Below are positions 53,483-56,163 of a DNA stretch of 64,000 nucleotides, in pieces (the stretch's first letter is position 1; every line of letters starts with the position of its first letter). The stretch lies in the NCBI RefSeq assembly GCF_001708405.1, contig NZ_CP012418.1:434001-498000 (forward strand). The letters are read 5' to 3'. Position numbers and translations under genes: made by a program. The notes below the pieces were generated by a model, which had not been told where the DNA came from, made no database searches, and saw only the letters and a list, made by a program, of their open reading frames with translations. The stretch comes from Kangiella sediminilitoris (GTDB lineage Bacteria > Pseudomonadota > Gammaproteobacteria > Enterobacterales > Kangiellaceae).

Positions 53483-55120
53483 ATGAAACACTTGAGTTTA
53501 TGGGGATTAGGGCTGGTTTTGAGTTTGCTGGGAAGCGCTACACTGGCATGTGTTACTCCTCAAGAGTTATACGCTGCTTCAGATCAGAGAGATCCTGAGC
53601 ATGATGCTTTTAACAAGGCCCTGAGCTGTCAGACGATTTCTACAGATAATTTAGAGGTCGTGCTTATCGCTCTAGGTCGTATTGGTGGCGAAAAAGCAGC
53701 TACTCGAATACTGCCTTATTTGAACCATGAAAATGCGCAGATACGCGAAGCGGCAGCATTTGCATTGGGTATTACTGCGGTTCCCAGTATGAGTGAACAA
53801 CTGGTTAAAGCGCTGAAACAGGAAAAGCAATCAGCGGTTAAATACCGTATAGCTGTAGCCATTGGAAACCTGGGGCACACTGAAGCACAGCAAGTGCTTA
53901 CAACTATTATTAATCAGTCTGAGGATTCGCAGGAGATCCGTGGTGCGCTACAAGGTTTGGTTAACCTCTCTTCATTCCATAGCTCCAGGTTAGGTTCGTT
54001 TGAAAATCTGAGTTCCAGTCAGTTATATAAAGCACTTTGGCAACCGGCAACCCAGCTCGAAGCAAGTTACTTAATGGCGCGTCGAAACCTGATGGAAATG
54101 ACGCAGGTGGATCTTGCTCTAAAGCAGCTGGATGCCCTTGAGCCAAAGGCGCAGGCAAAAATGGTACGTGCTTTGGCTAATACTGAGCTGGAAAAAGTGC
54201 TTCCTATGTTGCTGACTCATGTGCAACACGAAAATATAGGTGTCCGCGTTAATGCCATTCGTGGACTGGCAAACTTCCCAAAAAATCCTGCAGCGAGGGC
54301 TGGGGCCTTAATTGCTCTGCAACAAAAAGATGTTGCTAGTCAGGTAACTGCTTTACAGACATTACATAATGACTGGCTGGAAAGTGACAACATCTATCAG
54401 ACAGTAAAACAAAAGTTGTCCAGCGATAACAGTTGGGTCCAGTCTGAAGCTCTGATGGTGTTGATTAGAGCTGACAAAGCGGATGGTAAAACAGCTCAAA
54501 AGTGGGTTAGTAGTTCTGATCCAAACTTGCAACGCGCGGCTATTGCCTACTTCAGTAAAATGAAAGACAAAAAAATCTTACAGGAGCTGGCAGAGAGTGA
54601 TAAAGCAATTATTGCTCGCGGTGCCCAGCAGGCACTAAGCCCTGAACAGGAAACTCCGGGTAAGCCAAGCCGAACACCTGATGAACTTCCGGAGCTGGAT
54701 GCAGTGGTGTTATTGCAGACTACACAAGGCCCGGTAACTATAAAATTATTCGCCGATACGCCATACACTTCTGCTAACTTCATGCGACTGGTTAATGATG
54801 GGTACTATGACAACACTTACTTCCACCGAGTGATCCCTGATTTTGTAGCTCAGGGTGGCAGCAAAAGTGGTGACGGCTCGGGTTCTGTCGGCTATAGCAT
54901 TCGAGAAGAGCTATCCTATCGATCTCACCTTCCAGGAACAGTAGGGATGGCGACCTTAGGTAAAGATACCGGGGGAGGCCAATTCTTTATCAACACAGGG
55001 GCAAACTTACACCTCGATAGTAATTACACCATTTTTGGTGAAGTCATAGACGGCATGGAGAACGCCATGAAACTGGAGCAGAATGATAAGGTGGTTTCTG
55101 CTGAAGTGGTTGATGATTAA
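53483..55120 (+). CDS. Exported HEAT-repeat protein with C-terminal cyclophilin-type peptidylprolyl isomerase
   Basis: The 545-residue protein has a signal peptide (MKHLSLWGLGLVLSLLGSATLA), then helical HEAT-like repeats to about residue 385 (REAAAFALGITAVPSM; KYRIAVAIGNLGHTEAQQ; VRVNAIRGLANFPKNP), and a cyclophilin domain from about 405 with YYDNTYFHRVIPDFVAQGG and GGGQFFINTGAN. It would fold proline-containing proteins in the periplasm, with the HEAT region as a scaffold. ATG 53483 has AGGAGAGA just upstream; the longer frame to 53432 would hide the signal peptide. It is a single gene, followed by 560 bases without any other gene. Confidence 0.88.
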   Translation: MKHLSLWGLGLVLSLLGSATLACVTPQELYAASDQRDPEHDAFNKALSCQTISTDNLEVVLIALGRIGGEKAATRILPYLNHENAQIREAAAFALGITAVPSMSEQLVKALKQEKQSAVKYRIAVAIGNLGHTEAQQVLTTIINQSEDSQEIRGALQGLVNLSSFHSSRLGSFENLSSSQLYKALWQPATQLEASYLMARRNLMEMTQVDLALKQLDALEPKAQAKMVRALANTELEKVLPMLLTHVQHENIGVRVNAIRGLANFPKNPAARAGALIALQQKDVASQVTALQTLHNDWLESDNIYQTVKQKLSSDNSWVQSEALMVLIRADKADGKTAQKWVSSSDPNLQRAAIAYFSKMKDKKILQELAESDKAIIARGAQQALSPEQETPGKPSRTPDELPELDAVVLLQTTQGPVTIKLFADTPYTSANFMRLVNDGYYDNTYFHRVIPDFVAQGGSKSGDGSGSVGYSIREELSYRSHLPGTVGMATLGKDTGGGQFFINTGANLHLDSNYTIFGEVIDGMENAMKLEQNDKVVSAEVVDD

Positions 55121-55151
55121 AGTTTTGTTTTAGTTTTTCGCCCCTCGTCGA

Positions 55152-55185
55152 GTTCCTTTCTCTTAAGTGTGTAAGAGAAAGGAAC
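55152..55185. repeat. Strong hairpin at the left end of the repeat
   Basis: GTTCCTTTCTCTTA and TAAGAGAAAGGAAC pair perfectly over 14 bp with loop AGTGTG, 31 bases after the HEAT/cyclophilin stop. It may also end that transcript, although no T-run follows. Confidence 0.75.
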
Positions 55186-55632
55186 CAAAGAGAAGCACAC
55201 CCCAATATTGAGGTCATTTAAAAGAATGACTCCCTGTGTCGCTCAAAAATATTAAACGCACCAGAGTTTACAGCACTTCCATGTACTGAAAACTCTTATC
55301 AAAATCATCCACGATTTTGATTGCTATATTTGAGAGCTTCACAGCTCAATATTAAGGGGATAACAGTGCTGGACTGTACTTCAGTGCAAAAAACATTACT
55401 GCCGCTACACGAGTATAAATGATAGTCTATTTCTTACTGTATCGAATACACTCTAAAATTTAGCACCAATAATCCCGTAAACATTAGCCGCAACGGTTCA
55501 AAATTATAGCGTAAATTGGGCAGGGATAGCTCAATTTAATCAAGACGAAACAGGATGTTTCGTTTGATGGCGCTTAATAATTTTTAATCGTAAGGGAAGC
55601 CTTCAGGCCTAATGTTTGGGGCGAGTTTTTTG

Positions 55633-55663
55633 GTTCATTTTTTTGCTCGTACAAAAAATGAAC
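55633..55663. repeat. Hairpin at the right end of the repeat
   Basis: GTTCATTTTTTTG and CAAAAAATGAAC pair over 12 bp with one unpaired T and loop CTCGTA. It is the counterpart of the left-end hairpin and lies 20 bases from the GNAT stop. Confidence 0.7.
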
Positions 55664-55683
55664 GTTAAAGATTTAGAGGTAAA

Positions 55684-56163
55684 TTACAAAAACATCTCCA
55701 TCACAATATCGCATCGACTGTAGTCAACCCGTGATTCATGGTTGGTGAACTCTTTAAAGCCGAGCTGCTGATACAGTTTCATCGCAGGTTTAAGCTTGCG
55801 GTTAGACTCAAGAAACAGTCGTTTGCAGCCGCGCTTTTTTGCTTCTTCAATAATGGCTTTGGCTAGGAACTTGCCGACACCAGAGCCTTGATAGCCTTCG
55901 AGCACGCCCATCTTGGATAGTTCGTATTCATCTTCCGTCCATTTTTTTAGAGCACAGGCTGCAATGATCTCCCCAGAGTCATTGTCACGGGCGAAAAGTA
56001 TTTCTCCCCCAGTATCGATGAGGTAACGTTTGGGATCGTTAAGAACTCGTTTATCTTCATCTTCGATGACAAAATACTTCTCGATCCAGGCCTGGTTTAT
56101 GACTTTAAAGTCTTCTGCCAGCTCAGGACTGAAACGCTCGATTGAGATTTTATTTTTGCTCAT
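55684..56163 (-). CDS. GNAT-family N-acetyltransferase
   Basis: The 159-residue protein is a typical single-domain GNAT: IERFSPELAEDFKVINQAWIEKYF at the start, the central strands GGEILFARDNDSGEIIAACAL, the acetyl-CoA loop MGVLEGYQGSGVGKFLAKAI (Q/RxxGxG/A form QGSGVG), and the C-terminal LFLESNRKLKPAMKLYQQLGFKEF. The substrate is unknown. It diverges from the TerC-family gene over about 75 bases. Its 3' side faces the intergenic repeat. Confidence 0.9.
   Translation of the reverse strand: MSKNKISIERFSPELAEDFKVINQAWIEKYFVIEDEDKRVLNDPKRYLIDTGGEILFARDNDSGEIIAACALKKWTEDEYELSKMGVLEGYQGSGVGKFLAKAIIEEAKKRGCKRLFLESNRKLKPAMKLYQQLGFKEFTNHESRVDYSRCDIVMEMFL

Follow-up and report, generated by a model that had tools for sequence, protein, structure and literature searches.

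A head-to-head pair of two copies, one of subtype A and one of subtype B, of a single dispersed intergenic RNA-structured repeat family was identified in the window, i.e. the whole analysed stretch of 64,000 nucleotides. The repeat unit comprises about 210-250 bp and its core is the Rfam motif RF01731 (TwoAYGGAY). Halves A and B are read outward from the centre on opposite strands (Table 1). The pair is located between two convergent genes, and the terminal hairpins of both halves point at the gene ends. Upstream lies a gene for a HEAT-repeat/cyclophilin-like protein (plus strand, end at 55120), downstream a gene for a GNAT-like acetyltransferase (55684-56163, minus strand), both named from reading of the sequence. 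The genome with this twin locus consists of a single contig of 2,496,140 bases. The intergenic repeat with TwoAYGGAY core, often arranged as A|B twin, probably represents a dispersed CsrA-decoy-like RNA element, as suggested by its conserved hairpin loops.

Table 1 Features of the twin locus (positions in the window)
Feature	Position	Strand	Remarks
Half A, complete A-type TwoAYGGAY unit	55135..55375	-	5' end near 55375 (approximate border); 3' end CTCGACGAGGGGCGAAAA at 55135-55152
Half A, structured core (CCCC..GGGGTG)	55198..55359	-	RF01731 match 55227-55351, 48.9 bits
Half A, hairpin H1	55298..55321	-	Loop GTGGAT (GGA)
Half A, hairpin H2	55263..55296	-	Loop ATGGAA (ANGGA)
Half A, CAGGGAGTC strand and third hairpin H3	55212..55238	-	
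Half A, ..TTGGGG block	55198-55212	-	
Half A, long terminal hairpin GGTTCCTTTCTCTTA..TAAGAGAAAGGAAC	55152..55186	-	No U-tract after it
Twin centre	55376..55456	.	Gap between cores 113 bp (55360-55472); no conserved promoter detected
Half B, B-type unit	55457..55664	+	5' border TTAGCACCAATAAT at 55460-55473
Half B, structured core	55473..55623	+	R1 model 64.6 bits, E 6e-12; RF01731 match 55465-55629, 34.6 bits
Half B, hairpin H1	55512..55538	+	Loop with GGGA
Half B, hairpin H2, AACAGGATGTT	55545..55563	+	Loop AGGAT
Half B, AAGGGA strand and third hairpin H3	55592..55609	+	
Half B, ..TTGGGG block	55609-55623	+	
Half B, long terminal hairpin GTTCATTTTTT..AAAAAATGAAC	55633..55663	+	

Half A passes the Rfam gathering cut-off of RF01731 (43 bits), half B alone falls below it. 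In both halves two adjacent GGA-loop hairpins (AYGGAY-type) are enclosed by a closed stem, which is the TwoAYGGAY arrangement. The covariance model R1, built from seven A-type copies only and with half B excluded, recovered half B with high significance (Table 1). Furthermore, the folding of both halves was better than that of dinucleotide shuffles (z -7.4 and z -4.0). The pairwise local alignment of half A with half B reached a score of 21, which was equalled by 66 of 500 shuffles. Hence, the kinship of the halves rests on structure and short motifs, and structure models are needed for its detection. The elements listed in the sequence-only reading, namely GGA-loop hairpins, a GCG(T/C)TTAATA plus T block, a ..TTGGGG block and TTTGGTTC running on into a long hairpin, were all confirmed together with their positions. 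Its interpretation of the halves as two old, diverged copies of one type of unit is borne out by the RF01731 matches and R1. As evidence to the contrary it had named the lack of a second copy combined with an alignment of the halves no better than shuffled sequence; since further copies exist, the interpretation is not refuted, although the alignment is indeed shuffle-like. It overlooked that the core is already an Rfam RNA motif and that selection acts at the RNA level.

Searches with either half separately or with RF01731 yielded about 16-17 copies in the own genome, in agreement with the earlier assumption of a dispersed intergenic repeat. With the joint covariance model R2, used for copy counts across six genomes of the genus Kangiella, 129 copies were detected (16 in the own genome and 36, 23, 13, 21 and 20 in the others). 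The gene context of the copies is convergent in 44, sense in 30, antisense in 35 and divergent in 19 cases. Because of this mixed orientation, a role as 3'-UTR in fixed orientation was rejected. Beyond the neighbours of the twins themselves, no neighbour gene shared across copies was found, and the neighbour proteins are unrelated. The former suggestion of fused 3' repeats of two adjacent genes is therefore not tenable: neighbours differ at every locus, gene orientation is mixed and A|B twins recur elsewhere.

In 5' to 3' direction the unit starts with a short border, ending with TTGCnCCAATAA in approximately half of the copies, followed by CCCC and a long closing stem. The inner stem carries H1 and H2 with their GGA loops; an AGGRA-like strand, a third hairpin, GGGGTG and the long terminal hairpin follow. 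CCCC and GGGG form the closing stem of the unit. The terminal hairpin, with median arms of 13 bp and a loop of 6 nt, is present in 118 of the 129 copies, and 70 copies show the 3' end CTCGC..GCGAAA. Beyond the unit ends conservation falls sharply. The 3' end motif was also detected in Pseudomonas, Methylophilus, Lysobacter and Psychromonas. In Pseudomonas and Psychromonas the TwoAYGGAY core lies upstream of it, thus the full unit is not peculiar to the genus Kangiella.

Several further repeats were observed in or beside the units. In Methylophilus and Methylotenera (L197, L220, L262) the terminal hairpin and a CTCGCCGAnnGGCGAAA end stand behind other palindromic intergenic repeats without clear TwoAYGGAY core; thus, different repeats seem to share the 3' end as a module. 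Many copies contain an insert of roughly 25-30 nt, GTGACCnnnGGAAATnCCnnnnGG, in GGA loops or in the loop of the terminal hairpin (e.g. G000:C1:2007183-2007368 and 1061775-1061980). This insert, often with GGA itself, resembles a nested mini-repeat targeting hairpin loops. Just past their 3' end, the units are often followed by another intergenic repeat, which contains palindromes like GGATTCCCGCCTTCGCGGGAATGAC or CCCGCGGTCAAGCCGCGGG (e.g. L003, L004, L060; sites in G006 and G019). In G126, a genome of a different family of the class, some terminal hairpins have the hairpin GCAGATTTTTGCTCCTGCAAAATCTGC inserted, along with GGCATGAAT repeats in tandem (L366:130-240, L361:130-245).

Selection on the RNA structure was examined with 113 copies. 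Base pairing was kept in 91.8% of the pair cells, and double compensatory changes were found for 50 of 59 pairs. Covariation (0.533) was far above that of shuffled (0.187) and slid controls. An independent set from two distant genera agreed with the main set (92.5% of cells pair). GU pairs exceeded AC mismatches by 305 to 39, or by 170 to 35 without two columns with GU consensus. As an AC on one strand corresponds to a GU on the other, the GU excess marks the strand which is read as functional RNA. The covariance-model search itself leans to GU over AC, hence orthologous pairs, which depend less on this lean, were compared directly; here 16 steps between Watson-Crick and GU pairs were counted versus 4 between Watson-Crick and AC. 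The GGA was kept in 105 of 106 simple H1 loops and in 100 of 101 simple H2 loops, with many stem positions varying freely. Thus, as in CsrB/RsmZ-type RNAs, ANGGA sites in hairpin loops are under selection (205 of 207 simple loops).

An ANGGA loop closed by a stem is the classic binding site of CsrA/RsmA. The Rfam clan CL00106 contains both RF01731 and CsrB (RF00018), and csrA was found in 20 of 20 genomes searched, twice in the own genome. From motif matches, TwoAYGGAY was previously proposed to bind CsrA (PMC4333381). According to the reading we favour, either half would be transcribed outward from the centre. The resulting RNA would form a closed domain, with two or three ANGGA sites presented in its hairpin loops and the stable 3' terminal hairpin as boundary. 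Most likely it would then bind CsrA (RsmA), a post-transcriptional regulator, as a platform or decoy comparable to a small CsrB, in addition to the canonical CsrB-like RNA which these genomes also appear to have. That canonical RNA may already perform the sponging of CsrA, which counts against a decoy role of the repeats. No enrichment of sigma-70-like promoter sites and no conserved promoter were detected upstream of the units; transcription may therefore start in neighbouring genes or at individual unconserved promoters. No U-tract follows the terminal hairpin, so that independent small-RNA genes are doubtful. With neither promoter nor terminator detected, the unit is not classified as a CsrB-type sRNA, only as an element probably working like one.

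The two csrA genes of the own genome are located close together (G000:C1:1322444-1322599 and 1322945-1323100), whereas most relatives have one. Furthermore, a CsrB-like candidate RNA was found in several genomes; within about 250 nt it has 12-15 GGA motifs, and its RF00018 scores are 32.7-35.6 bits at a cut-off of 71. It is located at L383:1501-1747 (G000:C1:1930507-1930753, plus strand) and also in L380, L381 and L382. Its distance from a TwoAYGGAY copy is about 1 kb in G000, and TwoAYGGAY copies are also nearby in G005, G007 and G001.

Copies are better conserved in place than the adjoining genes. For 22 orthologous copy pairs, the median identity of the element was 95.6% compared with 80.9% for the flanking kilobases. 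The 60 nt immediately outside the borders showed 69-79% identity (20 orthologous pairs usable for this finer comparison). Within one genome, the other copies mostly resemble an element less than its orthologs do, hence gene conversion is no ready explanation for the identity of the orthologs. At the same time, copies are present or absent at the same intergenic site among relatives, and one intergenic space may hold different, non-orthologous elements in either orientation in different species. At the locus of the window, relatives have B alone, A in opposite orientation, a truncated A or nothing. Thus, the family both turns over and is kept in place. Four genomes of the genus with csrA gave no copies with RF01731 alone, indicating that the elements are dispensable.

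Some of these results would fit a transposable, MITE-like DNA element, as the sequence-only reading had considered. Its hairpins would serve a transposase acting on DNA, the GGA loops would be incidental, and the element would spread between genes while being otherwise inert. The dispersed, patchy and multi-copy distribution fits this explanation: matches were found in 18 of 274 sampled gammaproteobacterial genomes, mostly several per genome. Presence or absence at the same site combined with sharp ends, repeated hits of the same intergenic regions in either orientation and the preference of convergent over divergent gene spaces (44 to 19) also agree with it. However, the asymmetry of GU and AC and the invariance of GGA point to selection on one RNA strand, and orthologs are better conserved than neighbouring genes. 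Neither a partner transposase nor a target duplication was found (Y1 and neighbour genes checked; the neighbour proteins are all unrelated). When empty sites were compared by joining the flanks at three sites, the gaps of the relatives measured 0-32 bp at two and 148-378 bp at the third; the difference exceeds the unit, and no duplication could be called. An inert MITE thus appears unlikely; of the earlier idea, the dispersed multi-copy nature stands, and membership among MITEs is unproven. Spread and RNA function are compatible and do not exclude each other. Tentatively, and with rather low confidence, TwoAYGGAY might, instead of being an ordinary riboregulator, form the core of a twin RNA element in head-to-head arrangement which spreads by itself and seeds genomes with CsrA-binding decoys. 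Its mobile copies would be captured by the CsrA circuit of the host or parasitise it, and total CsrA activity would scale with repeat load.

The twin layout is frequent. In the six genomes, nine pairs of copies within 600 bp were found, whereas by a rough estimate the copy number would predict about 0.7. Each of the nine is divergent, the 5' ends facing one another, and in the tight pairs A is joined to B in 8 of 8 cases. In G126, 11 divergent pairs account for 22 of 30 copies, and the aligned centres of these pairs (78-82 nt) have conserved edges; three further twins were found in G307. Tandem layouts occur in G034 and G023, thus the twin is common, not universal. The origin of solo copies as decayed twins was considered and rejected, because opposite-orientation elements at the same locus were heterotypic in 16 of 26 cases, which is not clearly above chance. 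A twin CsrB-like gene pair, in which one promoter in the centre drives two small-RNA genes in opposite directions, would explain why every close pair is divergent and heterotypic, and why the centre length of the eleven twins of G126 is nearly fixed. In Kangiella, however, most copies are solo and twin centres range from 25 to 113 nt with variable sequence; together with the results on promoters and the missing terminator U-run, this makes such a gene pair quite improbable.

Bidirectional transcription terminators or protectors of mRNA 3' ends between genes were regarded as a further explanation. Both halves of the window lie between convergent genes with their hairpins toward the gene ends, and a terminal hairpin is present in nearly all copies (118 of 129). 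This role is nevertheless very unlikely, since the U-tract is missing, sense and antisense placement are about equal (30 to 35) and the invariance of GGA would be left unexplained. REPINs are paired inverted palindromic units in intergenic space. A REP-like family had also been proposed from the sequence only. A REP/REPIN-type element moved by a RAYT (Y1) transposase would match the head-to-head pairs of intergenic palindromic repeats, but can practically be dismissed: the sequence is not REP-like, the units are many times longer than REPs, and the transposase (PF01797) does not track the copies. It is absent in most element-rich genomes (G000, G006, G007, G013, G018, G009, G001), and G016, which has it, gave no copies with RF01731.

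An orphan RNA motif with a guessed link to CsrA is the core of a dispersed intergenic repeat in the genus Kangiella with fixed anatomy and recurring heterotypic twins. If the loops bind CsrA, the repeats would take part in a global regulatory titration network, with the number of copies per genome as a measurable regulatory variable. The family offers a direct test of the long-standing question of what use intergenic hairpin repeats are to their hosts. In the open-access literature searched, neither the dispersed nature nor the full anatomy or the twin form of TwoAYGGAY was found, and nothing relevant was found for the sequence motifs of the repeat or for CsrA-binding repeats. Within this literature, the RNA family is known but little studied, and its full-length, dispersed twin form is apparently undescribed.

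With REPINs and their RAYT transposases, the family shares the intergenic location and the inverted pairing of palindromic units, but differs in unit length and sequence and in the absence of RAYT where copies abound. Like bacterial MITEs, e.g. the QMITEs of Coxiella (PMC5896051), the elements are short, dispersed, hairpin-rich, intergenic and present or absent between relatives. In contrast to these MITEs (PMC5896051), they have no known parent transposase or target duplication and show strong conservation at the RNA level and in place. CsrB/RsmZ-type decoys (RF00018 and relatives, clan CL00106) likewise carry ANGGA sites in hairpin loops in hosts with csrA. Unlike these decoys, the repeats have few sites per unit and many genomic copies, no promoter or terminator was seen, and the host apparently has a CsrB-like RNA of its own. 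The closest relation is that to TwoAYGGAY (RF01731) itself, described in gammaproteobacteria by Weinberg et al. 2010 (PMC2864571), with which the core with two GGA-loop hairpins is shared and whose gathering score is exceeded by half A. The Rfam label Cis-reg (upstream of genes) is not matched by the mixed gene orientation found here; as the original paper marked cis-regulation as "probably not" (PMC2864571), this label was not treated as defining. Whereas the RF01731 model covers the core only, the units described here add the CCCC/GGGG closing stem, H3, the terminal hairpin and the 3' CTCG..GCGAAA end. They also go beyond the Rfam description in occurring as tens of dispersed copies, often as A|B head-to-head twin.
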